Virus record (IMG/VR): IMGVR_UViG_3300050821_006672
Span: 1-64,000 of that record
Strand: one strand, 5' to 3'
From: a virus
DNA: 64,000 nt
Translations under genes and position numbers: made by a program
Notes under the pieces: generated by a model
What the model saw: the letters and a program-made list of their open reading frames with translations, nothing else
The model's database searches: none
What the model was told of the DNA's origin: nothing
In this document: positions 2,684 through 20,716 of the stretch, piece by piece
Layout: each line of letters begins with the position of its first letter
How positions within the stretch are numbered: position 1 is the first letter of the stretch

Positions 2684-3172
2684 CTAAGTCACGCTGGGGA
2701 CGGGAGGCGCCGCGGCAGGTTCCTTGGCGAGGGCGCGGAGCCGATTACATACGTCGAGGGCACCATAAGCGCGACCGCGCGCCAATTCATCTCCTGGTGC
2801 CCCTTCTTGCCATGCCACGGCGACGGCTTCACCAATTGCGATGCACCGCTCGATCGTCGCGGCTTCGATGGCGTCGCGCTCTGCCAGCACCTCGTAAATC
2901 GTCCTCATCGCGCTGGTGTTCTCCAACTCCCGCACGCGGGCTTCGGCAGCCTCGGCCCGATGTAGCCGATCCCCCGATAGTCGCTCTGCATTGAAAAGCA
3001 TGCGTTTCGTTTGCTCGATCTCCTGCGCCTGCGCGGCGACTCTCGCCTCTGCAGCTTCTGCGCGTGCGCCCAATTGGTCGATCAGTTCGTGCGGATCATC
3101 CTGAGATTCGCTACTGAGCGCATCAACTGCTCGCTGGACCAAGTCCGAGATCGGTTCTGCGGTGTCGGTCAT
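2684..3172 (-). CDS. Coiled-coil protein, Ea22-like
   Basis: 162 residues with a long heptad-rich stretch from about 33 to 105 (two EAAEARV repeats) and a helical C-terminus. It resembles the loosely defined phage Ea22-like proteins in having a central coiled coil and a C-terminal helical part. This is the last gene of the leftward block, tail to tail with the lipoprotein gene. Function unknown. Confidence 0.65.
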   Translation of the reverse strand: MTDTAEPISDLVQRAVDALSSESQDDPHELIDQLGARAEAAEARVAAQAQEIEQTKRMLFNAERLSGDRLHRAEAAEARVRELENTSAMRTIYEVLAERDAIEAATIERCIAIGEAVAVAWQEGAPGDELARGRAYGALDVCNRLRALAKEPAAAPPVPSVT

Positions 3173-3181
3173 TTGGCGTTC

Positions 3182-3340
3182 TCACCATAGCCGTCCGATA
3201 CCCACACCCAGGCATAGGTGCTCCAAGGCCACGCATACCAGCGGGGTCTTCGATGCGTCGGTCATGTTGGCGGTTCCTCGTTGGGCCTTCTCTTGTGCGC
3301 CGCGCGTCATTGGGGGGCCCTGTACTGGTTTCTCGTCCAT
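3182..3340 (-). CDS. Small protein of unknown function, start uncertain
   Basis: The open frame ends ten bases before the downstream gene. Possible starts are ATG at 3340 (52 residues), GTG at 3370, or ATG at 3265 (27 residues, preceded by GAGGA). No domain is recognised. It is included because the leftward block leaves almost no non-coding space and one start has a fair ribosome site. Confidence 0.35.
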   Translation of the reverse strand: MDEKPVQGPPMTRGAQEKAQRGTANMTDASKTPLVCVALEHLCLGVGIGRLW

Positions 3341-3418
3341 AAGCTTCGCGTCCTCTGTGAGCCTCACCACCTCGCACGTCGCTTAGGGGGTGTACCGGCA
3401 TCCTTAAGGGGAGTAGCG

Positions 3419-3613
3419 CTATAAACCCCGTCCTGGGTTTTGTAGCGTTACTACTCCACCGGGGGATTTTACCCGTCTGCTTCGAATGTATTCTTCCAAC
3501 GTTATAACCGGACCAGCATAATATTGCATGAACTTATTGTACTCGTCGCGATAGCGAGCAAGATCGCCCTGCGTTATGTGAATAGTCGGCTCTTCGATGA
3601 TTTTGATACTCAT
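3419..3613 (-). CDS. Small protein of unknown function
   Basis: 64 residues with an acidic/aromatic helical centre and a basic tail. ATG at 3613 overlaps the preceding stop as ATGA and has GGAG upstream, so it is translationally coupled to the 3610-3852 gene. No recognisable domain. Confidence 0.6.
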   Translation of the reverse strand: MSIKIIEEPTIHITQGDLARYRDEYNKFMQYYAGPVITLEEYIRSRRVKSPGGVVTLQNPGRGL

Positions 3614-3852
3614 GATTCCTTCTCCATCGTAACTTTGATTACGTCGCCGATTTCCAGCCCTTCCGGCTTCTCCTTCCCCACATACAGCGCTTCGTAGCTG
3701 CCTTCCAGCGCAAGGAACCAGCCTAGCTGTTCTGTGCGTAGTTCCACGTTGTCCGCGGTCGCCGACTTGTTGCGATCGAGGATGCGTCCTGAGGCTATTC
3801 GCTCGCGCGGCTCTAGTTTGACGACGCGGGTGTGAAAGACTATTGGGGGCAT
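3610..3852 (-). CDS. Small phage protein of unknown function
   Basis: About 80 residues starting MPPIVFHTRVVKLEPRER. The alternating charged/hydrophobic pattern and the GDVIKVTME end suggest a small beta-rich fold. ATG at 3852 is preferred; a GTG nine bases upstream would add three residues. It overlaps the end of the zinc-ribbon frame upstream and is coupled to the next gene by ATGA. Confidence 0.6.
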   Translation of the reverse strand: MPPIVFHTRVVKLEPRERIASGRILDRNKSATADNVELRTEQLGWFLALEGSYEALYVGKEKPEGLEIGDVIKVTMEKES

Positions 3853-4026
3853 AATGTGCACCGCGGATAGCCGAAGCCGTCGTCTTCTTTATGTATGCAG
3901 GTTTGGCGATAGCTCATATCCATTGCGCCGCATTGTGGGCAGGGATCAAGATCGTCGAAGCACTGGCTCAAGGAGCGCTGTACTAATTCTAGCTTCCTCG
4001 ATTACGTCTTCCCATCTATCTGTCAT
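3840..4026 (-). pseudogene. Small zinc-ribbon protein split across two frames
   Basis: ATG at 4026 overlaps the preceding stop (ATGA) and encodes MTDRWEDVIEEARIST... but hits TGA at 3946. A second frame, open from about 3990 to TAG at 3840, encodes LDPCPQCGAMDM ... YPRCTLCPQ, two CxxC knuckles of a small zinc ribbon resembling Lar-type proteins. A one-base change near 3950-3980 would fuse them into one protein of about 60 residues. It may be a real frameshift mutation, an indel error, programmed +1 frameshifting, or two genes (second start TTG at 3971). Confidence 0.5.
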
Positions 4027-4340
4027 TTTTTGCTCACTCTGTACTTTCCATAACTGTCGTGTATCAACACGCCTCTTCGTGTTAGGTACCCCACTGCATT
4101 ATATATCGCTTTTGTTGGGGCATCTGGGTAGCTTTTCAGTAATTCTTCTATAGTAAGTTCCTCTCGTCCACTGAGGAAGCGAATTACAGAGTGCGCCGCA
4201 GTACCGAAGCGCTTGCCTGCAACGAATGGTGGCAAGGAATCACTCAACTCGCCGACAAGTTGATATCGGGATGTCATTGACAAAGTACGAACTAGGGTTC
4301 GTATCAAAATCATAGTTTCCCGATCTTGCTGCTGGTCCAC
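4023..4340 (-). CDS. Small winged-helix-like DNA-binding protein
   Basis: 105 residues. The C-terminal part (LTIEELLKSYPDAPTK, then VGYLTRRGVL and a short beta hairpin YGKYRVSK) fits a winged helix-turn-helix. The GTG start at 4340 is supported by GGAGGTGA ten bases upstream. It lies directly after another HTH protein and may regulate the leftward block. Target and partners are unknown. Confidence 0.6.
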   Translation of the reverse strand: MDQQQDRETMILIRTLVRTLSMTSRYQLVGELSDSLPPFVAGKRFGTAAHSVIRFLSGREELTIEELLKSYPDAPTKAIYNAVGYLTRRGVLIHDSYGKYRVSKK

Positions 4341-4342
4341 GC

Positions 4343-4693
4343 TTACTTTCTCACCTCCGTAGGCTTGAGTCCCTTTCTCAAGGGGACTCCCGCTTGTTGG
4401 CAGATAACCCAGACTGTTTTGCGATCAACGCCATGGTCGTCGCAAATATCTTTGATTTTTCTACCGCTCCTATATTCAATCTCGACTGCCTTCCTTGTTT
4501 CTGGCGAGTTCCCCGGCCGTCTCTTTTTGCATCCCATATGTCTTGCAATTCTTGAGATACCTCCAATGCTCATCTCATACTTTGCGGCGATCGCATTGGT
4601 TGGCAGTCCTGCGTTGTAGTCTCGCAGGATAGCGACGTTTCTTGTCCATCTGCGCTCATAGTCGCGCTGGATCGAAAGATAGCTACTTTTCAT
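4343..4693 (-). CDS. Tandem helix-turn-helix protein
   Basis: 116 residues with two HTH units, about 29-50 (AGLPTNAIAAKYEMSIGGIS) and 75-100 (IKDICDDHGVDRKTVW), separated by a basic linker with KKRRPG. The layout resembles the DNA-binding half of homing endonucleases such as the one at 17335-18186, but no nuclease domain follows. It could be a regulator or a truncated homing-endonuclease relic. The start overlaps the end of sbcC by 11 bases. Confidence 0.65.
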   Translation of the reverse strand: MKSSYLSIQRDYERRWTRNVAILRDYNAGLPTNAIAAKYEMSIGGISRIARHMGCKKRRPGNSPETRKAVEIEYRSGRKIKDICDDHGVDRKTVWVICQQAGVPLRKGLKPTEVRK

Positions 4694-6527
4694 CGTACTT
4701 AATCATACTCTCTTGTTTCTTATTTTTAACGACAGTCGTTACGGACGAAAAGTCTGAGGACTGGACGGCCATATGATCGACCAAAAATACAATCTTGTTG
4801 TTAGCCCTTGCTCGCTCGGCAAGGAAGGGAAGAAGATCGCGTACGCCTTCCTGGGAGAGATGTGACGTCGGTTCGTCGAGTATTTCTAGGTTGGTCGTTA
4901 CCCCCGCATGATTTAGCAGCACGTCGGATAGGGCTAAAGCCCCAACAAGGCGTAGACGTTGGCCCTCCCCTCCCGACCAGCATTTCCATCGCACGGGCTT
5001 GTCATTGCTCGGTGATAGGATAGTAACGTGCAGTCCGGATTGCAAAGTGCCGGCCTGGGTTTCCTTCTCGATCGAAAATTTGATCTGCCAATCCTCTAGG
5101 CCGATATCGGCCAGCATCGCATTGCTTACGAACTCCAACTCTTGTAGAACCTCGGTAATGACGTACAGTTGCACATCTTTGAAGCCTTTGATCCAAAACC
5201 GCGTCCGTTCGATTTTACGCCTTAGCGTCTTTTGTTCTTCTTGCATTTCTTCTCGCTCTTTGAACGCCTTGCCCCGCTGCCGAACGAAATCGCGAACCTG
5301 TTCCAGGTAGGTATTTCGGCCGCTGGAAAGTTCTGTGATAAGGTTCTTGATCGTAGCAATCTTGATTTTGAGGTCGTTGCAGTCGCGTCCGTAAAGGCTG
5401 ACTTGGGAAAGGGCTTCCTCGTGCTTTGACTTGAAATCTTCGTAAGCTGCCTGCGCTATCTTGAGTTTTTCTACGTCTTTGGCTGGGTCGATTCCGGCCA
5501 TTTTTGTTTTAAGCTCGGAGACTTGCCGGCGCTTGCCTAGGAAGTCCTTCTTGATCTCAGCGACGTGCTCTTTCAGATTGATGGGCTTGATGTTTTGTCC
5601 GCAAGTCGGGCATGTTTTGCTCTCTGCGATAAAGTGGCGCTCTTTGTCAAGTCTCTTAATTTCAGTAGCTAGGTATCTAATCTCAATAGTGCAGTTGCTG
5701 CGCTCGCTATTGGCTTTGTTGATCGCACTCTTTAGGTAATCAATCTCTTTTACGAGCGCTTTGATCTCAGTCGCTTTACCTTCCTCACTTAGCGTAGCAG
5801 TGTCGAGTAGTTTTTGCTTTGTCTTGAACTGCTTTTCTAAGGTGGCTAGCTCAGCTTCTTGCTCTTCCAAACGCTCCTTACGAGCCGCAGCCCATTCGTC
5901 AGCCTTCTTATTGGCTGTGGTAATCGTAAGTTCCAGGTGATCCAAAAGCCCATCGAGTGCGGATACCTCGCCAGACTTGTGATCGTATTCGCTTTGTAGT
6001 TCGTTTGTACGCTCGGAAGCGATCTTGGATCGAGCGGCCCAACGCTCCGAATTGAGCGCAGCGGCGAGGATACGCATTGCGTCGCTTGGGGCAAGATCGA
6101 AGAAGAGTGGCTGTCCTTGCCCGAGTAGGATTGTGTGGGAAAACAACTCGAAGCTGACGCCAATTAATTTTTCGATATCTTCAGGACCGGTGACCTTATC
6201 GTTGATGAGAAGCCTGTTGGGACTTATGGTACGCGTAATTTCATCTTTGTTTAGCTTGAGGGTGACTTGAGTTTTGCCAGAATGAACCCAGGGGCTAACG
6301 TCGGTGTTGCGCCGGCCGTCTATCGTCTTGCCAAAAAGACACCAGGACATCGCGTTGAACAGAGTTGACTTGCCGCTGCCGTTTGCGCCTAACTGCGGCT
6401 CATACTCATTTCGGCCTTGAAGGAAATGGAGGCCTGGTCCGTACTGATAAAAAACAAAGTGCTGTTTGACAAAGCTGCCAAAGTAGGAAATCTCTAGGGA
6501 ATTGAAATGTAGGTTCAAAAAATACAC
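4683..6527 (-). CDS. sbcC: SbcC/Rad50-type recombination ATPase (gp46-like)
   Basis: 614 residues from GTG 6527, which has AAGGA upstream and lies three bases after the previous stop. Walker A GANGSGKST is near residue 47. A long coiled coil is interrupted by a CPTCGQ zinc hook. The ABC signature SGGEGQRLR, Walker B LEILDEPT and a D-loop/H-loop region follow at the C-terminus. Together with SbcD (6814-7851) it should form a DNA-end-processing nuclease complex used in recombination-dependent replication, like T4 gp46/gp47. A small coiled-coil gene separates the two subunits. Confidence 0.93.
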   Translation of the reverse strand: MYFLNLHFNSLEISYFGSFVKQHFVFYQYGPGLHFLQGRNEYEPQLGANGSGKSTLFNAMSWCLFGKTIDGRRNTDVSPWVHSGKTQVTLKLNKDEITRTISPNRLLINDKVTGPEDIEKLIGVSFELFSHTILLGQGQPLFFDLAPSDAMRILAAALNSERWAARSKIASERTNELQSEYDHKSGEVSALDGLLDHLELTITTANKKADEWAAARKERLEEQEAELATLEKQFKTKQKLLDTATLSEEGKATEIKALVKEIDYLKSAINKANSERSNCTIEIRYLATEIKRLDKERHFIAESKTCPTCGQNIKPINLKEHVAEIKKDFLGKRRQVSELKTKMAGIDPAKDVEKLKIAQAAYEDFKSKHEEALSQVSLYGRDCNDLKIKIATIKNLITELSSGRNTYLEQVRDFVRQRGKAFKEREEMQEEQKTLRRKIERTRFWIKGFKDVQLYVITEVLQELEFVSNAMLADIGLEDWQIKFSIEKETQAGTLQSGLHVTILSPSNDKPVRWKCWSGGEGQRLRLVGALALSDVLLNHAGVTTNLEILDEPTSHLSQEGVRDLLPFLAERARANNKIVFLVDHMAVQSSDFSSVTTVVKNKKQESMIKYDEK

Positions 6528-12611: not shown

Positions 12612-14600
12612 TCACCCTTCCGTAAACAGTACTCGTCCGATTGCGGTAATCAATGGTGCCAGCTTATCAGACTGATTGAAGGGCTGTGAGAATGCATCAA
12701 GAATTCCCAACGCATGACAGGCGGCACGATCGGTCTTCGCTCCTTTGGCAACGCTCGCCATGTAGTTAGCCACCACAATGCGGATTGACTCTGGGTTTTC
12801 GCCATCGAGTTGTTCGAGTAGTCCCATTGCCTTCATCCATGATCCCCCCTTGACCAGGAAGCGGCAGAGTTCGATCATGGCATCGGACTGAGAAGCAGTG
12901 TGGAGTAGTTCGCTGGCTTCTTTACGAGACCTGGCGTTTCGACACAACTCGAGGTTGACAAGGAGTTGGCGTGGCGAGCCACGGGCTTCCTTGATGATGG
13001 TATCGCCGACATCTCCAGGGAGTTCCAGGTCCTCAGCTTCGGCAACTTTGTCATACAATTTGCCAAGGTCGGTATTGGGAACATCACGCAGAGTGTAGCT
13101 GGCAGCACGGGTCTTGATTGTATCTGGCACTTTCGATGGTTCGGTTGTGCAGAAGAACCAAAAAGCATGTTCCGGGGGTTTCTCAGTGATCTTCAATAGT
13201 GACTGCCATGCATTTTTCGATAAACTGTGACAGTTGTGTACAATAACATTGGCGACGCTAAATGATGGGTGCTCTTTTATTTCTAAGTCATAGAACTCAA
13301 ATAGCGCTTCACCGTCCAGACTACCGCACGGGAATTGCCCGATATTTGTGAGTTCTTGAAGCGAAGGATGGTCCACCCCAATGACTGTAGTCGCTCGTCC
13401 TTGAGCTTGTCTATTTGGCGTTGTTGTCGAGAGTTGTGTGTTCCACCATCCACCTCGATACCCAATCGCTGCTTCGGAAAACCGATGTCGATTTTGTAAC
13501 AGGATGGCCATCCCTTTAGCCTTCGACCATGCCCAAACGTAACAACATGTTCCAACTGCCCACCAACTAAGGAGTGTAGTAACGTTTGTTCCCGAGTTGG
13601 TCCCTTGCCATTCCCACCGCGTTCGCCTGTCCATATGTGAAGCGTGCCATTGGTATCTTTCACGCGTAGCATCTTTTCTACTGTCGCTTGATTGCGCATT
13701 GGGTTGTTGTGACGCATTCGAATACTGCATCGTTTGGCAATGCCAGCCCACATCTCTGGTTTTTTGTGTTTGCTTCGAAGCACTCCCGCACGTTGATTGT
13801 TTTTTCTTTGCTGGGAGTGAGATCGTCCAACTCGTTTCAAACCACCAAGTTTGGCTCCGCATTTTCGTGAACACGTAGTTACAGGGGATGTTGGCCGCGC
13901 TCGAAAGTATTCTCCACAAATTACGCATTTTCTCTTCAAGCACTCTGGACAGAATATTGATCCACTTTTTTTGCTCGTATACCGGGTCCCACATTGACGA
14001 CAAGTGTTGTGGTATATTGGAGGCGTTAGTGGGTAACCTTTTGGCATGTAAATCCCTCGCGTTGATCCAACCGCCAAATGTCAGAAATGGATGTTCTTGC
14101 GAGGAGATTATATGATGCCCGCTTTCCAGGCGCAATCTAACAATGTGTGATAAAGGAACTAGTCGTTTGCTCACTGATGCGACAGTTTGCTCGCCGTGAG
14201 CGCCTAGTACTTTGTCTCCTGACAGGAGCTGTTCAATGGGAACATCCCCGTTAGGAGTGTTTACTAAGGTGCCTTTAACAAAGCATTCGTCCAAGATGAC
14301 GGCGCGTTTCGTTCCCTGCCCGAATGGTTTGTAACGAAGCATCTCCTGGATTGAGCGCATATCGTCAACGCCAGTACGAGATGCGGCGTCAATCTCGGTG
14401 ATGTTGGCATCGAGACATCCTGCTGTTCGCGCAGATATCCTTGCCAAAGTCGTCTTTCCACATCCCGATGGCCCACAGAAAAGGAAGGTTTGCGCTCCCC
14501 CTCTTAAGATAATGGCTTTCAATGATTTGATAATAGTTGTATGACCAATGACCTCATCAAAGGTTCTAGGTCGATACTTGTCGTGCAGTACCTCTGTCAT
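12612..14600 (-). CDS. Clamp-loader AAA+ ATPase interrupted by an intein
   Basis: 662 residues before splicing, about 311 after removal of the 351-residue intein. ATG 14600 overlaps the previous stop (ATGA). The extein has the KYRPRTFDEVIG box of DnaX/RFC loaders, Walker A GPSGCGKTT (43-51), an intein inserted directly after Walker B VILDE (Cys106), then CHSLSKNAWQSLLK and the sensor-1 CTTE. The loader opens the DnaN-like clamp (18636-19682) around primed DNA. Only one loader gene is visible. Insertion in the Walker B/DEAH motif is typical because that site is invariant. Confidence 0.9.
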   Translation of the reverse strand: MTEVLHDKYRPRTFDEVIGHTTIIKSLKAIILRGGAQTFLFCGPSGCGKTTLARISARTAGCLDANITEIDAASRTGVDDMRSIQEMLRYKPFGQGTKRAVILDECFVKGTLVNTPNGDVPIEQLLSGDKVLGAHGEQTVASVSKRLVPLSHIVRLRLESGHHIISSQEHPFLTFGGWINARDLHAKRLPTNASNIPQHLSSMWDPVYEQKKWINILSRVLEEKMRNLWRILSSAANIPCNYVFTKMRSQTWWFETSWTISLPAKKKQSTCGSASKQTQKTRDVGWHCQTMQYSNASQQPNAQSSDSRKDATRERYQWHASHMDRRTRWEWQGTNSGTNVTTLLSWWAVGTCCYVWAWSKAKGMAILLQNRHRFSEAAIGYRGGWWNTQLSTTTPNRQAQGRATTVIGVDHPSLQELTNIGQFPCGSLDGEALFEFYDLEIKEHPSFSVANVIVHNCHSLSKNAWQSLLKITEKPPEHAFWFFCTTEPSKVPDTIKTRAASYTLRDVPNTDLGKLYDKVAEAEDLELPGDVGDTIIKEARGSPRQLLVNLELCRNARSRKEASELLHTASQSDAMIELCRFLVKGGSWMKAMGLLEQLDGENPESIRIVVANYMASVAKGAKTDRAACHALGILDAFSQPFNQSDKLAPLITAIGRVLFTEG
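13233..14285 (-). mobile_element. Intein in the clamp loader, with an internal endonuclease gene in another frame
   Basis: 351 codons between DE and CHSLSK. Block A is CFVKGTLVNTPNGD, block B is SSQEHPFLTFGGW, block F is FYDLEIKEHPSFS, and the end is VIVHN followed by Cys+1, so the splicing residues look intact. The region between block B and block F translates in the intein frame as a Ser/Thr/Trp/Gln-rich sequence without a recognisable endonuclease, because the endonuclease lies in another frame (13283-14047). The intein frame nevertheless has no stop codon there. Confidence 0.9.
13283..14047 (-). CDS. Vsr/DUF559-like homing endonuclease nested in the intein, other frame
   Basis: 254 residues from ATG 14047, with GAGGG eight bases upstream; both lie inside intein block B coding sequence. 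The N-terminus carries Cys knuckles (CRQCG, FCPECLKRKCVICGE, CSRKCG), the middle a basic RSHSQQRKNN region, and the C-terminus a Vsr/DUF559-like nuclease: YKIDIGFP, LGIEVDGGTHN, then LKDERLQSLGWTILRF. Its TAG stop falls within the codons for intein block F (YDLE) in the other frame. It is probably translated on its own and drives homing of the intein allele. Confidence 0.85.
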   Translation of the reverse strand: MPKGYPLTPPIYHNTCRQCGTRYTSKKSGSIFCPECLKRKCVICGEYFRARPTSPVTTCSRKCGAKLGGLKRVGRSHSQQRKNNQRAGVLRSKHKKPEMWAGIAKRCSIRMRHNNPMRNQATVEKMLRVKDTNGTLHIWTGERGGNGKGPTREQTLLHSLVGGQLEHVVTFGHGRRLKGWPSCYKIDIGFPKQRLGIEVDGGTHNSRQQRQIDKLKDERLQSLGWTILRFKNSQISGNSRAVVWTVKRYLSSMT

Positions 14601-15019
14601 TTCTTTTCCCATGGAAATACTAGCCAAGTATCTTGTTCGACTTTTACAGAGAATGTATCAATGAATTGTGTTTCCGTAGGTTTTGCGTACACCACTGCAT
14701 AATGAGCAGTAAGCACTTTTTGTACGCTTTCTATCGTTTTTCCTGTACTAATAGTGTCATCAACTACTAATACGGGACTAGGCATGAGACGGGGAAACTT
14801 GGTGATGTGAAGAAGACTGCCTCGTTGTTTGTTTTCGTCGTAGCTTTCTATGCATAGGGTTTCAATCATACGAATGTTGAGTTCGTGTGCAATTATTGTG
14901 GCTGGAACCAAGCCCCCTCGGGATACTGCAATAATTGATGCGAAGCCCCGTGGCAGTTGTTTGATGAGTGCTCTGGTGTCCTGATGAAATCGTTCCCAGG
15001 TGATGTTGATGGTATTCAT
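14597..15019 (-). CDS. Phosphoribosyltransferase (xanthine/hypoxanthine type)
   Basis: 140 residues. VSRGGLVPA near residue 33 and the PRPP-binding motif VLVVDDTISTGKT near residue 83 match Gpt-like purine phosphoribosyltransferases. It would make XMP or GMP-type nucleotides from free purine bases. In a phage that consumes GTP to build deazaguanine, guanine salvage is a plausible role. Both ends overlap neighbours by ATGA, so it is coupled to polymerase and clamp loader. Confidence 0.8.
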   Translation of the reverse strand: MNTINITWERFHQDTRALIKQLPRGFASIIAVSRGGLVPATIIAHELNIRMIETLCIESYDENKQRGSLLHITKFPRLMPSPVLVVDDTISTGKTIESVQKVLTAHYAVVYAKPTETQFIDTFSVKVEQDTWLVFPWEKK

Positions 15020-18000
15020 GATCGCTTATGTCCCCAAATTTCTACGGAACTGAACTTGCCAATCTCGGTCAGGTCACACCAGTTTTCTCCAACTGAGACT
15101 TCCACCCCTAGAGGAACATTTACCCATGGGAACTCTACGCGGGTCATCTCACGTACTACAATTTCCAAGTTCTTGTCGATTTCGTGCTTGGGCCAGATGA
15201 AAGTCAAATCATCATGTATCTCCATATTGGCTTGGAAACGTAATTGTTCATATTCGGACAATCGCGCCATAGCAGAACATACAATTTTCGATTCAAGTGC
15301 TTGGATAGGGCTGTTGATTCTTTGGTTAGGTGAGATTGGTGCACGACGCCTGAAACCGGACAGTCCCGTGATGTACCCTAGTTTGTAGTACATCTTTTCT
15401 AAGTCGTCATGCCACTTTTTGATATCAGGAAACTTACTCCAGAATGTCTCTTGTAGTTTGACGCCGATGTGTTTCGGAACACCCAACCCTCCCGATACAT
15501 TTTCTGCCTGCGCGCCGAAGAACGAGGGAAATACGAACTTGTTCTTCGACTCCTGCCGGAGTTCCTTTGCAAGTTCCTTGTCTTTGAGTGATTTTCCACG
15601 CAACCATTGCGGATACATTTTGGCGAGCCGATACATCCAGTCCGAATGAATGTCATAGTTGTTCCAGAATGCATCTACCAAAGCTTTATCACATGACTCC
15701 ATAGCAACATTACGTGCTTGAATACCTGAGAAATCAACTGTGACAACACGCAAATCCCCTCCCGGCTTAACCTGCTTTCGCAACTTACGGTTAGGCCCAT
15801 GCTTTACTATGTTTTGGCTATTAGGATCATTACTACTCGTTCGCCACGTGCGAGTACTATGCGTGCTAATGTGAGGATGAACGCAGCCATCCGAGTATAA
15901 AGTATCCGAGCCCTTCTTGAAGGGAAGTATATACGTGGAATGCATCTTGTTGGCTTCGCGCCAATCCAAGACCAAGTTTACAAAAGGATGTTTGATCTGT
16001 TTGAGTTCGTTTTCATCCACGCTCTCGACGGGATGATTGAGTATCTTCTCAATGACGAACTTGACATCCTGATTGGCTGATGGTCGAAATTCTGTCTTTT
16101 TTATCCGAGCAAACTTCTTTACGACGTCGAGTTGTGTCAGGTCTTTCTCTATCTTGCTACGACGTTGCGTAAATTCCTTGTCAAACTCGTTAACGACATC
16201 CTGGTTTGCTGGAATGCCTTTCAATTGGGTGAGAACCATCGTTGGGATGCGCCGCAACTGATGCTCGTACACACCCATCAAATCTTCGTCACGCAGACGT
16301 TTACGCTGTGGGAAGTACAAGTAGCGATGGGCTTTGCTATCGAGTGCGTTGTAACGTAGGACTTGGTCTAATGGTTCCTTGTCCAGGTTGTTCTTATCGA
16401 GCTTCCCAAACAACGCTTTTACGTCCAGCCCAAAGTACTGGATGCAAAGGAACTCGAGGCTGTGGCATCCGGGGTTGCCTCCCATACGTTCATCCAGGAT
16501 GTAGGCTTGTGAAAGCGTGTCTTCCCAGGGTTGGGCGCGGAGTACCTTCCTGCCATAGAAATATGCTGACCACTCCATTTCAAAGGAGAGTGAATGTACC
16601 ACCTTCTTACAAGGAGCGGTCAGGAGAAACTCTAGCAGAGTATCTTCTACGCGTTCGATCTGACGATCAGACCAGTCACATTCTGGATGATACAAGGGAA
16701 ATGATGCGGCAACCTCATATCCCGCCATTGCCACTGTGAGTATTTTTGAGGTCTTCTTGTATGGGCGTAATCCTTTTGTTTCGTAGTCATAGCCGACGAT
16801 CTTTTCGTTATGCATCGCCTTGATGAACTTGATTGCGGCATCGGGATTTGTAATGATCTCTACGTCACGTGAGAGGTCCTCGACGGTGAAAACCTTGGGT
16901 TCGGGGAGTTTGTCAACGATGGCAAATGCATTACGCAGATCATTAGCAAATGCGAACTCGATGTCCGAGCCATAGCTGTTTTTATCCCTTGGCTCAAACT
17001 TGCGGGACCGTCCTACGTAGGACGGATGCATCATGGGGAAGAACCAGCAAATGTGATTCCCTACCTTGATGGGAACATGTCTGCCATTCCACTTGGTAAT
17101 GCCTTGCTGCTTGAGCGCCCATTGAAGGGGCACGTTTCCAAAACCGAAGATTGCTTTTGGCTTTGTCTTTTCTACGTCGGACGTAATTGATGGACGGCAG
17201 CACTCCACTTCTACCTGGGTAGGTTCACGGTTCTTGGGTGGTCGAGTGTTGCTTACGACATGATTTTCCGCTACATACCAACCTTCGTCGGTTTCTAAGT
17301 TGTATATAAATCCTTCAAAGGGTTGGGTATCAATATGAATGACATTGTCAAACTGTATAAGAGTGGGGTTAGTTTGTGTCAACTTGAAGAGCAACTCGGA
17401 ACCTCCAAGTTCTTGATTAAGAAAATCCTCCTTTCTAATGGGGTGCGAATGCGTACCCATAGAGAGTCCAGAAATATTGAAGCGGCTAAGCCCTTGTGGA
17501 GACCTCCATCCGTTAAGGAAGTCTGTGATAGGTACGTCGCCGGTGAAAGCACGGAAGAACTCGCTAAAATTTATCATGTCCGCCCGCGTACTGTAAGTAG
17601 TTTTCTCAAACGGAACGGTATTAAAATCAGAAATGTTAGTGAACAGCTGCGTGTTTGGGCAAAGCGAAATCCCAGTGTTATCGATAGGAAACGTCGCTTC
17701 GGTCAGGGTATTAGATTGGGGGCCAATCTCAGAGAGGTTTGTACTCGCGAGGCACGTGCTAGAAGACTTCAACAAACACTTTCTGTTGCCTCTGATATTG
17801 AGCTGCTGTTGATTCCCGAACTTAAGCGGAGAAGCATTCGATTTATCAGACAGTACCCAGTTGGGACTTACAACCTCGACTTCGCCTGTTCCAATATCGC
17901 CGTGGAAATTGAAGTTAGTGTCAACCATCCGTTGGCTATGCCCCACAAGAGATTGCGCTGCAAAAAGCTCATCGAGGCGGGATGGTTTGTTTTGTTCGTG

Positions 18001-18537
18001 TGGATAAATTCCTCCCATCCATTGGTTCCTGCTACCGTAGTTAACTATTTGATCTCCAAGAGAAAGTTGATACGCGAAAAGCCATCCTTGGGATGTAAGT
18101 ATTGGGTGGTGCGGGGTACAGGGGAGTTCGTCTCCAAAACGCGTCTTGACTATTATAAGCTCACCCACGAAGTAGCGGCGGAATAACTTCTTTATTCTGG
18201 ACGGTGTTGTTACTTTTACTGAACCAGGAAAGCAGCGCACTACATTGGTCCATCGAATCTTATCATTCCATTTCTCAGGAATGCGAAAGCGTAGTATCTG
18301 GCCCGTCTTCCCGACAAACTGCTTTCCTTGCTCGTCTTCCGAGGCCCCAGGGGCTTCCCCAATTACTAAAATTGTAGGATGATCGGAACCAGTTGGCTCC
18401 ATGTGTGGATGTTTTAGCCCGCGCTGATGGTTGAGCGGACAGACCGCGCAGCCATGGCGATGAAGGAAATCTACAGATAGGTTTTTGGGAACCAGTGATT
18501 CATTGTTGCGAGCTGGGGACGTTGGAAGGAAACCCAT
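15016..18537 (-). CDS. polA: DNA polymerase I fused to an N-terminal uracil-glycosylase-like domain, with intein
   Basis: 1173 residues before splicing, about 844 after. Residues 26-100 plus the post-intein part form a family-4-type uracil-DNA glycosylase domain: Cys30/Cys33, GEAPGASEDEQGKQFVG, then the intein, then TRPPKNREP and a CC pair. A 3'-5' exonuclease follows (YDYETKGL, the HSLSFEMEW region), then a family A polymerase: motif A VVTVDFSGIQAR, the motif B region, and motif C MEIHDDLTF. The spliced junction VVR-TRPP replaces the usual Cys of this UDG motif with Thr. This is the replicative polymerase. Confidence 0.92.
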   Translation of the reverse strand: MGFLPTSPARNNESLVPKNLSVDFLHRHGCAVCPLNHQRGLKHPHMEPTGSDHPTILVIGEAPGASEDEQGKQFVGKTGQILRFRIPEKWNDKIRWTNVVRCFPGSVKVTTPSRIKKLFRRYFVGELIIVKTRFGDELPCTPHHPILTSQGWLFAYQLSLGDQIVNYGSRNQWMGGIYPHEQNKPSRLDELFAAQSLVGHSQRMVDTNFNFHGDIGTGEVEVVSPNWVLSDKSNASPLKFGNQQQLNIRGNRKCLLKSSSTCLASTNLSEIGPQSNTLTEATFPIDNTGISLCPNTQLFTNISDFNTVPFEKTTYSTRADMINFSEFFRAFTGDVPITDFLNGWRSPQGLSRFNISGLSMGTHSHPIRKEDFLNQELGGSELLFKLTQTNPTLIQFDNVIHIDTQPFEGFIYNLETDEGWYVAENHVVSNTRPPKNREPTQVEVECCRPSITSDVEKTKPKAIFGFGNVPLQWALKQQGITKWNGRHVPIKVGNHICWFFPMMHPSYVGRSRKFEPRDKNSYGSDIEFAFANDLRNAFAIVDKLPEPKVFTVEDLSRDVEIITNPDAAIKFIKAMHNEKIVGYDYETKGLRPYKKTSKILTVAMAGYEVAASFPLYHPECDWSDRQIERVEDTLLEFLLTAPCKKVVHSLSFEMEWSAYFYGRKVLRAQPWEDTLSQAYILDERMGGNPGCHSLEFLCIQYFGLDVKALFGKLDKNNLDKEPLDQVLRYNALDSKAHRYLYFPQRKRLRDEDLMGVYEHQLRRIPTMVLTQLKGIPANQDVVNEFDKEFTQRRSKIEKDLTQLDVVKKFARIKKTEFRPSANQDVKFVIEKILNHPVESVDENELKQIKHPFVNLVLDWREANKMHSTYILPFKKGSDTLYSDGCVHPHISTHSTRTWRTSSNDPNSQNIVKHGPNRKLRKQVKPGGDLRVVTVDFSGIQARNVAMESCDKALVDAFWNNYDIHSDWMYRLAKMYPQWLRGKSLKDKELAKELRQESKNKFVFPSFFGAQAENVSGGLGVPKHIGVKLQETFWSKFPDIKKWHDDLEKMYYKLGYITGLSGFRRRAPISPNQRINSPIQALESKIVCSAMARLSEYEQLRFQANMEIHDDLTFIWPKHEIDKNLEIVVREMTRVEFPWVNVPLGVEVSVGENWCDLTEIGKFSSVEIWGHKRS
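17248..18234 (-). mobile_element. Intein in the UDG domain of the polymerase, with an antisense endonuclease gene
   Basis: 329 codons inserted between NVVR and TRPPKN. It starts CFPGSVKVTT, has block B-like PCTPHHPILTSQGW and a C-terminal part FEGFIYNLETDEGWYVA ending HVVSN before Thr+1. The penultimate residue is Ser, not the usual His. The middle of the intein frame is open but codes no recognisable domain, because the opposite strand carries a complete endonuclease gene (17335-18186). Confidence 0.88.
17335..18186 (+). CDS. Homing endonuclease encoded antisense inside the polymerase intein
   Basis: 283 residues from ATG 17335 with AAAGGG upstream; a TTG at 17323 would add four residues. 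Two N-terminal HTH units (about 1-30 and 60-90, e.g. STEELAKIYHVRPRTVSSFL) precede a basic region and a Vsr/DUF559-like nuclease: SDIELLLIPELKRRSIRF, YNLDFACSNIAVEIEV, KLIEAGWFVLFVW. The gene runs against the intein, and its last 45 codons or so lie opposite the N-terminal Hint region. It is the only clear rightward gene inside the leftward block. It likely promotes intein homing. Confidence 0.85.
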   Translation: MNDIVKLYKSGVSLCQLEEQLGTSKFLIKKILLSNGVRMRTHRESRNIEAAKPLWRPPSVKEVCDRYVAGESTEELAKIYHVRPRTVSSFLKRNGIKIRNVSEQLRVWAKRNPSVIDRKRRFGQGIRLGANLREVCTREARARRLQQTLSVASDIELLLIPELKRRSIRFIRQYPVGTYNLDFACSNIAVEIEVSVNHPLAMPHKRLRCKKLIEAGWFVLFVWINSSHPLVPATVVNYLISKRKLIREKPSLGCKYWVVRGTGEFVSKTRLDYYKLTHEVAAE

Positions 18538-18635: not shown

Positions 18636-19682
18636 CTATGCCATTGCTGCGACCATGTAGATCGCTCCGCGCGCATTCGTCAGGATCATACATTTGTTTG
18701 TAATGAGCATCTTGGTGTAGGTGTCGAGGCCGGATTTGATATGACGGCAGTCAATCTTGAGTGATACGTCGGGATGATCCTCTTTGAGTTTCATCGAGTC
18801 CATCATTTCACCACGCAATTGTGAGTTCGTTTCCATCCTGAGACGACCATCCCCAATCGTAATCGTCGTATAGTTCTTTTCTGAAGCTACATCAGCGATG
18901 ATGATTGCGCGCTCGATCATTTCCTTGAGACGTACAGGAATAACGATCGCGGACTTCTTGATATCCTGCGGGACATTGTGGTTGACGATCTTATGGAACT
19001 CGATGGGTCTATCGGTTTCGATCAGTTTCCCGAACAGGGTGACGTTACCTGAGGTGAGCAGACTGTACTCGTCATTGATCTCGATCTTGCTTGCTCCTGA
19101 CTTGGCAATCTTGACGGCCTGCTTGCAGAACTCTGTCGACAGCGTCACGCGGTTCTTGATGGGAGGTACGCTGGTCAGATTGAGTGGCACGTAGGTCAAT
19201 GTCAAATCGTTGGTCCCGAACATCGCCAGGAACTTTTCGGTGCGGACCAGGGTCACACCAAGTTGCTCGGGTTTTGATGGATCGGTTCCTGCCGATTGTA
19301 GGCATAGTTCGAGTCCTTCGAAAAACGTATCGGGGAAATTGGTAGTATCCTTCGCCGGCTTGGGCATCTCGAAGATGAAGGACGACGCAGGCATCGTGGG
19401 GAATGCTATGTTTACCCCACCTGCTTTTAGACGTAGATTGTTCTCGTCTTGGGTGAGATTGACCTCCTCGGCACGAAGCGTCTTGACCAGACTGGTAAAC
19501 GTGTTCCCCTGGATCGCGCATTCGAAATCTGTCTTGAGGCGTGTAGAAACCGCAATGGCATCGTTGTAAGCCATTATGCCGGCCCCAGTGAACCAGATGT
19601 GGTTCAGGATGGGAATAATGTCGTGATTGGCAAGGGCTGGACTGACGAGATCGACGCAATCGACTAAGTCTGTTCGGCGCAT
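18636..19682 (-). CDS. dnaN: DnaN-like sliding clamp
   Basis: 348 residues, close to the three-domain bacterial beta clamp. Recognisable features are ARGAIYMVAAMA at the C-terminus, in place of the bacterial MPMRL-type end, an internal IVIPVRLKEMI strand-helix and a regular beta-alpha-beta pattern. It tethers the polymerase and is loaded by the 12612-14600 product. The start has AAGGA nine bases upstream and overlaps the end of dpdA by 19 bases, linking clamp and deazaguanine genes in one transcript. Confidence 0.88.
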   Translation of the reverse strand: MRRTDLVDCVDLVSPALANHDIIPILNHIWFTGAGIMAYNDAIAVSTRLKTDFECAIQGNTFTSLVKTLRAEEVNLTQDENNLRLKAGGVNIAFPTMPASSFIFEMPKPAKDTTNFPDTFFEGLELCLQSAGTDPSKPEQLGVTLVRTEKFLAMFGTNDLTLTYVPLNLTSVPPIKNRVTLSTEFCKQAVKIAKSGASKIEINDEYSLLTSGNVTLFGKLIETDRPIEFHKIVNHNVPQDIKKSAIVIPVRLKEMIERAIIIADVASEKNYTTITIGDGRLRMETNSQLRGEMMDSMKLKEDHPDVSLKIDCRHIKSGLDTYTKMLITNKCMILTNARGAIYMVAAMA

Positions 19683-20716
19683 AATTCAATTTCCTTCATG
19701 TGCTCGACAAAATCATGATAGCGTCGAATGACATAACTCTCGTTATTCCAATCATACACACTACGCCGCATTTTGCATTGAACCAATCCTGATGTCATAT
19801 ACTTTTCGAACCGCTCTTGTTTGGTCTCGCGGAGTTCAAAGTAAGACAACAATCTAAAATTTGCGCCACGTCGTGTCAGCGAAATGTTCTGCGGGTTAGT
19901 TTTTATCATGGTGGCAAATACTACGTTGAAATCATCTGTTTTACGCGTTTCCCGAACGTGTTTTTGTAGTCCTTGATAGTAGATGATGTTTAGGTCTTGT
20001 CGTGTGTGTGGCGTGTTGCATACGCTCTCAATGGGGAGGTCGAGTTGATCTCGGACGTACTTATTGAGTGAATGCCTGAGTCCCGCGTCAAGTCCGAGCA
20101 TCCCATAAGAAATGCCGGAGGCAGTTGTTATGCGTGGTGAAAAACGTACTGAGGTTGGGCGTGAGAAATCTGGTTCTTTGTTTCCCAACGCGGGGATGTA
20201 AACCTGCCCAAAGCCTCCTTTGAGTGCCCAACTCGTTGAGTCCACAGTTGTCCAGGGATAACGCAAAAGTAGGTTGGGTCCAGTTGCGCCGAACCCGTGT
20301 GTTTTGATTGGTTTCTTCCCCTGACGTTTTGCCAGTATTCCGAAGCAGCGATCCAGCCAGCGATGAAGCTCGTTGGGATGGGAGCGTAAGTAGGGGGAAA
20401 TCCCAATGTAGGATTCTTTGTCATCGATCAGGCGTTCGAGCCAATCAAAGTTTTCTCCCTGATGAAACACGGGGATGGGATTCAACCCTTTGTCTTTAAT
20501 GCGCTGTAGATTCTCGTAGGAAAGGCGTGCGGAGCGTTCGACAGATTCGTGGGTCCGGATGAGCTTTCCCTTTGATCCAGGGATAACGTCCATGTTGACG
20601 TAGGCAAAGATCAACTCCTTGTTGCGTTTGATGAACTCGACGTATTCGTCGATGCTGATGGAAATGTCACGACGCCACGCCGAAAATGCGCCGCTGTCCA
20701 AAAGGAGAGTAATCAT
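19664..20716 (-). CDS. dpdA: DpdA-like DNA deazaguanine transglycosylase
   Basis: 350 residues from ATG 20716, which shares a base with the folE stop (TGATG). The TGT-like fold is indicated by LLLDSGAFSAW (Asp7), PVFHQGENFDWLERL, a KTHGFGATG turn and TTVDSTSW (Asp159), the two Asp regions used by tRNA-guanine transglycosylases. DpdA proteins exchange guanine in DNA for preQ0 or preQ1. Genomic linkage to folE, queC and queD, with queE and queF elsewhere in the window, fixes the DNA-modification role. Sequence specificity and the base accepted cannot be read here. Confidence 0.85.
   Translation of the reverse strand: MITLLLDSGAFSAWRRDISISIDEYVEFIKRNKELIFAYVNMDVIPGSKGKLIRTHESVERSARLSYENLQRIKDKGLNPIPVFHQGENFDWLERLIDDKESYIGISPYLRSHPNELHRWLDRCFGILAKRQGKKPIKTHGFGATGPNLLLRYPWTTVDSTSWALKGGFGQVYIPALGNKEPDFSRPTSVRFSPRITTASGISYGMLGLDAGLRHSLNKYVRDQLDLPIESVCNTPHTRQDLNIIYYQGLQKHVRETRKTDDFNVVFATMIKTNPQNISLTRRGANFRLLSYFELRETKQERFEKYMTSGLVQCKMRRSVYDWNNESYVIRRYHDFVEHMKEIELCAEQT

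Follow-up and report, generated by a model that had tools for sequence, protein, structure and literature searches.

A phage clamp-loader intein with a Vsr/DUF559-like endonuclease gene nested in its +1 frame, and a widespread family sharing this layout

The window analysed here is a 64,000-nucleotide stretch of viral DNA (IMG/VR record IMGVR_UViG_3300050821_006672, positions 1 to 64,000), on the minus strand of which a DnaX-like clamp-loader reading frame runs uninterrupted from 14627, at a TTG codon, to 12612. The start of this gene is probably the ATG at 14600, which overlaps the TGA of the upstream gene. The open reading frame (ORF) matches the NCBIfam profile dnaX_nterm (1.4e-47) and the clamp-loader family phrog_5846 (1.8e-65), and in its middle it matches Hint_2 at 1.9e-7, above the Pfam cut-off. 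The features of the locus are collected in Table 1, where, as in the text, a slash within a motif marks the point of insertion.

Table 1. Features of the clamp-loader locus, with positions in the 64,000-nucleotide window
Feature	Position	Strand	Basis
DnaX/gamma-tau-like phage clamp loader, N-extein up to Walker B (...VILDE)	14286..14600	-	open frame; NCBIfam dnaX_nterm; phrog_5846
Intein of 351 aa at DE/CHS, beginning with Cys1, ending in His-Asn and followed by Cys at +1	13233..14285	-	sequence; structure model
N-terminal half of the Hint splicing domain (blocks A and B)	14048..14285	-	Hint_2/Intein_splicing matches; family N-block profile
Sequence resembling a ribosome-binding site, its GAGG core 7 nt before the nested ATG	14052..14060	-	sequence; SD-like enrichment in family
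Nested gene for a (putative) homing endonuclease of 254 aa, at +1 to the intein frame; the protein has two zinc ribbons and a nuclease domain of DUF559/Vsr-like type (D187, E198, D200, H204, D213)	13283..14047	-	sequence, Pfam, structure model
Intein-frame linker, intein residues 140-300, entirely within the nested gene, T/S/Q/A/R/W-rich	13386..13868	-	model; N/S in relatives
C-terminal half of the Hint splicing domain (blocks F and G)	13233..13325	-	sequence; structure model
C-extein of clamp loader (CHSLSKNAW...)	12612..13232	-	DNA_pol3_delta2 2.9e-12; phrog_5846

The intein interrupts the Walker B motif of the clamp loader (ILDE/CHSLSK). Its block B reads ISSQEH and its block F FYDLEIKEH, and the N-block profile of the family described below matches the window genome at 14040-14297 with an E-value of 6e-15. 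Residues 1-85 and 321-351 were modelled as a Hint domain with a pLDDT above 90 over most of both halves, the best structural matches being inteins and Hint domains (Z 14-19). Between these two confident halves the linker has a pLDDT of about 37-51, or about 43 taken as a whole, and is predicted to be disordered. The first-pass annotation, a reading of the letters without database searches, had described intact splicing ends (Cys1, an SSQEH block B, block F and His-Asn-Cys) around a Ser/Thr/Trp-rich central part. Both descriptions held, the former on the sequence, the Hint matches and the model, and the latter on the composition of the linker. The element thus has the features of an intein; protein splicing itself is inferred from sequence alone, in the absence of expression data.

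The nested gene is read one base downstream of the intein frame, begins with ATG and encodes a protein of 28.8 kDa. The positions given in the first-pass annotation for intein and nested gene were confirmed. Its TAG stop codon (13285-13283) falls within block F, as had been claimed, but the companion claim that it starts in block B failed in detail, since the ATG sits just past that block and only a weaker in-frame TTG (14077) is inside it. The third frame contains 14 stops across the same region. The protein matches DUF559 (PF04480) at 9.5e-11, with 42 bits against a cut-off of 20.6 bits, and DUF559 was matched in all seven family members scanned. Paired CxxC motifs in the sequence resemble two zinc ribbons. 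The endonuclease was modelled with a pLDDT of 85.7, and the top Foldseek match of the model was I-Bth0305I (3r3p). Structure comparison revealed a PD-(D/E)XK fold of the Vsr type, the nuclease domain aligning with NGO0050 (3hrl; Z 13.2, rmsd 1.2 over 85 residues), I-Bth0305I (Z 11.9, rmsd 2.4 over 89) and Vsr (1cw0; Z 10.0, rmsd 2.1 over 95). The Vsr-like/EDxHD superfamily, to which I-Bth0305I belongs, is defined by an E-D-H-D motif. These residues occur in order in the window protein as E198, D200, H204 and D213; among 72 endonuclease sequences the last three are invariant and E198 is conserved at 90% or more. The nested nuclease satisfies both the fold and the residue tests of this group, although cleavage is inferred. 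The proposal of a complete Vsr/DUF559-like endonuclease in another frame, with its own ATG and a ribosome-site-like sequence before it, held, and the alignments suggested as a check, to Hint domains and to Vsr-like endonucleases, both gave matches.

An open intein frame across a gene of this length is not expected by chance. If the endonuclease protein is taken as given, an open intein frame has a probability of 5.6e-9 with phage codon usage and 2.0e-7 with the gene's own codons, and synonymous resampling left the frame open in 0 of 20,000 trials under each of two models. The same avoidance of stops can be seen in codon choice across the family. Where a codon in the overlap ends in T or C and is followed by AA, AG or GA, T was used in none of 1065 cases, compared with 2655 of 4695 (57%) at other overlap positions, because T at these positions would create TAA, TAG or TGA in the intein frame. 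In the host exteins the same test gave almost no bias (39% versus 41% T-ending). The Tyr of the YKxD nuclease motif is encoded by TAC in 72 of 72 cases in which the next codon starts with AA, whereas TAT is used at 163 of 256 harmless Tyr positions. This bias is not an effect of ascertainment, since the loci were gathered by endonuclease similarity and the intein frame was ignored.

Selection in the two frames was estimated from seven independent close pairs; divergent pairs have multiple hits, and the ratios are approximate. At sites that are nonsynonymous in the intein, the endonuclease has an N/S of 0.25 (0.21-0.29), indicating purifying selection. The N/S of the Hint N-half is 0.31. At sites that are nonsynonymous in the endonuclease, by contrast, the intein-frame linker has an N/S of 1.04 (CI 0.82-1.33) and is neutral with respect to its amino acids. 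Changes synonymous in the endonuclease that would create a stop in the intein occur at 0.26 times the rate of other synonymous changes. Because the linker is neutral while stops are avoided, its reading can be regarded as a spacer, kept open but without detectable sequence constraint. Only the endonuclease reading of the overlap is conserved as protein; in the intein-frame linker it is only the absence of stops that is conserved. The first-pass view that the open frame is very unlikely by chance was therefore upheld, whilst its suggestion that selection keeps both readings held only in part: the proposed tests found stop avoidance in the intein frame, but in the overlap only the endonuclease is constrained at the amino-acid level.

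Relatives of the element are numerous. Endonuclease-based and Hint-based searches together identified about 140 distinct contigs with the same layout and relative frame, and at none of the loci found does the endonuclease lie in the intein's frame. Single-sequence searches of viral and genome contigs with the window endonuclease gave no matches; only the family alignment found relatives, and the wider set was obtained by running that alignment as a profile against these contigs. In a phage collection, all 40 homologues of the endonuclease lie under helicase-type coding sequences, some annotated only as coil-containing or hypothetical. Seven phage records were compared, from Vibrio (CP-T1, K391, 1.194.O, 159E43-1b and 104E43.1), Pseudomonas (MR14) and Corynebacterium (phi673). 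All seven have a continuous coding sequence, an intein at DE/CHH and a +1 endonuclease, and in none is the nested ORF annotated; the nested, out-of-frame position explains the absence of these endonucleases from annotation.

Every locus of the profile search at which both Hint halves were detected (98/98) has the endonuclease nested at +1 within a continuous host ORF, as do, with respect to frame, four further loci with one Hint half detected; no in-frame or split version occurs among them. The endonuclease-based set, including the window, forms 78 clusters at 70% identity and 38 at 50%. No intein-frame stop is found in the 78 clusters, while the third frame averages 14.6. An independent search with the Hint N-half was run to avoid the bias of starting from the endonuclease. 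It recovered a +1 endonuclease at 76 of 80 loci (28 of the 76 on contigs already known) and mini-inteins at the other four, and likewise gave no in-frame or split version. The layout occurs in phages and in contigs binned with many bacterial phyla; no relatives were found in the plasmids searched. Distant chromosomal DUF559 genes (L108-L132, with low scores) are not nested and were counted as background.

All of the insertions are at Walker-B-like DE or DEA(H/Q) sites. Hosts include SF2/ResIII helicases, SNF2-like helicases with DE/SS and others that Pfam left unnamed, and clamp loaders are the hosts in the window, L103 and L106 (by Pfam) and in L090 and L105 (by motif). C1, H65, H350 and N351 are invariant in 58 inteins, and Cys or Ser is conserved at +1. 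The nested layout is a widespread class and not a one-off. A closed intein frame, or relatives revealing an assembly artefact, had been named at the outset as grounds for refutation; neither was borne out, the frame being open from end to end and the layout shared by relatives. Assembly artefact or chance was rejected by the resampling, the family-wide +1 layout, the codon bias and the independently sequenced phage isolates.

Comparison of filled and empty sites provides evidence for mobility. On either side of a clean intein insertion, the helicases of CP-T1 and VchM-138 share 96-97% identity; VchM-138, with the empty site, reads DE/AHH (GCT), and CP-T1, with the filled site, DE/CHH (TGC). 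Phages 142E35-1 (empty) and 159E43-1b (filled) again differ as Ala versus Cys at +1, while 1.251.O is empty with DE/CHH. Over these three helicase comparisons the exteins are 81-97% identical, with Ala versus Cys in two of the three pairs. The pattern fits homing with co-conversion of the +1 residue, although cleavage of the empty site by the endonuclease is inferred from the distribution of alleles only. A clamp-loader relative in phage R5C has an uninterrupted DECH site; for the phage of the window itself, no empty allele of near-identical sequence turned up. The intein-bearing helicases L003 and L006 have DECH at Walker B and their intein-free relatives L133 and L134 have DEAH, suggesting that a DEAH box turns into DECH after the inferred splicing.

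Mini-inteins are present at the same site in L153, L166 and L191. Those of L181 (774-1196) and L202 (3013-3450) retain the C-terminal end of the endonuclease, still at +1, and show decay by deletions that leave the intein frame open. A search for alleles lacking the intein or the nested gene, as the first-pass annotation had advised, thus turned up empty helicase sites, the uninterrupted R5C clamp loader and mini-inteins. Hint and endonuclease distances are correlated (Spearman 0.52, with 0 of 300 permutations as high), which agrees with the two travelling as a unit, but both also correlate with the host gene.

Several loci depart from the common arrangement. In L091 a free-standing relative of the endonuclease (2968-3582) lies directly upstream of an intein-free helicase (3543-5036) with DE/SHH and overlaps its start; by inference, this might resemble a state before merger, or collaborative homing. 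A second free-standing relative (L064:2950-3594) is on a phage contig with no Hint domain detected nearby. A single helicase ORF in L054 (1896-5789) contains two inteins, one of the nested-DUF559 type in Walker B and, further on, one with an in-frame LAGLIDADG endonuclease.

Very likely, the element is an intein that is mobile and splices in cis, with its homing endonuclease encoded by a separate gene nested in the +1 frame of the intein coding sequence. Sequence comparison establishes the nested layout and the fact that a large family conserves it, the selection on each frame and the existence of empty and filled sites; splicing, internal initiation and cleavage of empty sites are inferred. 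According to this model, the ribosome would read the clamp-loader precursor straight through the endonuclease region, and the two Hint halves would fold around a disordered linker that is a meaningless reading of the endonuclease gene. They would then splice the intein out, restoring the clamp loader. Other ribosomes would initiate at the internal ATG, aided by the SD-like site at the end of the Hint N-half, to produce a free endonuclease with zinc ribbons and a Vsr/DUF559-like domain. This enzyme may cut intein-free alleles at the Walker B codons, whereupon repair would copy in the whole element along with the Cys codon at +1.

Evidence on internal initiation is mixed. An ATG is present at the junction in 76 of 78 representatives, and SD-like matches of at least 5 bases precede 16% of junction ATGs compared with 5% of control ATGs (p 5e-7 and 1.6e-5). 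Such a match is, however, missing from about half of the family representatives, and upstream stop-to-start spacing, considered as a sign of internal initiation, was no different from the control (45% versus 41%). The SD-like enrichment and junction ATGs favour internal initiation, without proving it.

The alternative is programmed +1 frameshifting near block B, which would yield a fusion of N-extein, Hint N-half and endonuclease. In its favour, the relative frame is always +1, a strong SD-like site is wanting in about half of representatives and the stop-to-start spacing is ordinary; SD-like sites can also promote +1 shifts, as in prfB. Against it stand the junction ATGs and the threefold enrichment of SD-like sites, and common descent accounts for the constant frame. 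Moreover, L012, L017 and L023 have an endonuclease-frame stop directly before the start codon, leaving almost no room for a shift. Frameshifting is thus very unlikely, though a fusion is not excluded, because half of the representatives lack a strong SD-like site and the spacing matches the control. It could also be supposed that the intein is an ordinary large one and the endonuclease ORF within it merely decayed or fortuitous. There are no expression data, and the ORF is unannotated in the seven phage records. Nevertheless, the N/S of the endonuclease, the invariant or nearly invariant catalytic residues, the confident fold like that of I-Bth0305I and Vsr, the DUF559 matches in all members tested and the neutrality of the intein frame over the same stretch all but rule this out.

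A further possibility is that the insertion does not splice but stays in the host protein as a tolerated loop. The ShiLan domain (the Pacc40 insertion), a hidden out-of-frame HNH endonuclease in phage methylases (PMC11855218), shows that out-of-frame endonuclease insertions without splicing domains exist. Here, however, Cys1, the block B His, the terminal His-Asn and the Cys or Ser at +1 are conserved, the Hint fold is recognised at the Z-scores given above, an insertion left in the catalytic Walker B motif should inactivate the ATPase, and intein-bearing alleles have Cys where empty alleles have Ala. A non-splicing loop can be all but dismissed.

A nested-gene intein of this kind resembles several known systems without matching any of them. 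Canonical large inteins such as PI-SceI, PI-PfuI and Mtu RecA share the Hint fold with Cys1, His-Asn and +1 Cys, a conserved insertion site within an ATPase active-site motif, a patchy distribution, empty-site alleles and decay to mini-inteins. In these, however, the endonuclease is a domain of the intein polypeptide, of LAGLIDADG or HNH type, instead of a separate overlapping +1 gene of the Vsr/DUF559 fold. Fractured genes, in which split inteins flank a free-standing EDxHD/Vsr-like endonuclease (I-Bth0305I, PDB 3r3p), were reportedly described by Dassa et al. 2009. They have in common with the present family the phage replication genes, the Hint halves flanking a Vsr-like endonuclease gene, the nuclease fold and the E-D-H-D residues, but there the host is split, whereas here host and intein form one unbroken ORF that the endonuclease overlaps wholly. 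ShiLan likewise has an endonuclease in another frame of an open host gene and a mobile, patchy distribution. It differs in having no splicing domain or intein features, an HNH fold, no detectable ribosome site and only actinobacteriophage cases; with its Hint domain, the window element does not meet the ShiLan criterion of lacking a splicing domain. Group I introns with an internal endonuclease ORF are also self-removing elements containing a separately translated endonuclease gene. The window element differs in being removed by protein splicing, which requires a host frame free of stops across the endonuclease gene.

In the literature searched, no true intein was reported to contain an out-of-frame endonuclease, the ShiLan papers being closest; Dassa 2009, Gorbalenya 1998 and Gosselin 2025 lay outside that search. 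The last of these (Gosselin, Arsenault and Gogarten 2025, bioRxiv 10.1101/2025.01.02.630785) reportedly concerns actinobacteriophage inteins with non-canonical architecture and, judged by its title and citing context, could describe overlapping reading frames in inteins. Among the seven phage records compared, only phi673 is an actinobacteriophage. The nested-gene layout is therefore likely to be undescribed, although priority is not settled. The initial claim that it is unlike established inteins, being neither in-frame nor split, stands within the literature accessible, with ShiLan as the nearest precedent.

Inteins are usually presented as endonuclease-fused or endonuclease-less, and fractured genes are set apart from both as an oddity. 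A large family in which the splicing gene conceals a second, complete gene in its frame represents a third plan. It also provides an unusually clean natural system of overlapping genes, in which all of the protein information lies in one frame, while the other merely has to remain open. The layout suggests a route to split inteins, and the family offers many new inteins with long disordered linkers, maybe useful for engineering. A bolder reading, put forward only tentatively, treats nested-gene inteins as an old class of mobile element in its own right that has not been described before. They would go back to a single merger, in which a Walker B mini-intein and a free-standing Vsr/DUF559 endonuclease gene came to occupy overlapping frames, and would be a natural starting point for the split inteins of fractured genes. 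If so, split inteins would arise once stop avoidance in the intein frame relaxes.

Two other loci in the window bear mention. The minus-strand ORF at 15016-18537 looks by eye like a fusion of uracil-DNA-glycosylase and DNA polymerase A and carries a second, different intein (CFPGSVKV...HVVSN). The N-half of its Hint domain (18043-18264) is matched by the family Hint profile, and it contains no long nested ORF on the same strand. At 19072-19689, likewise on the minus strand, a 205-aa ORF with many R, S, Q and H residues overlaps, in another frame, a gene that by eye is sliding-clamp-like (18636-19682). This is the longest other overlap in the window, and is probably due to chance.
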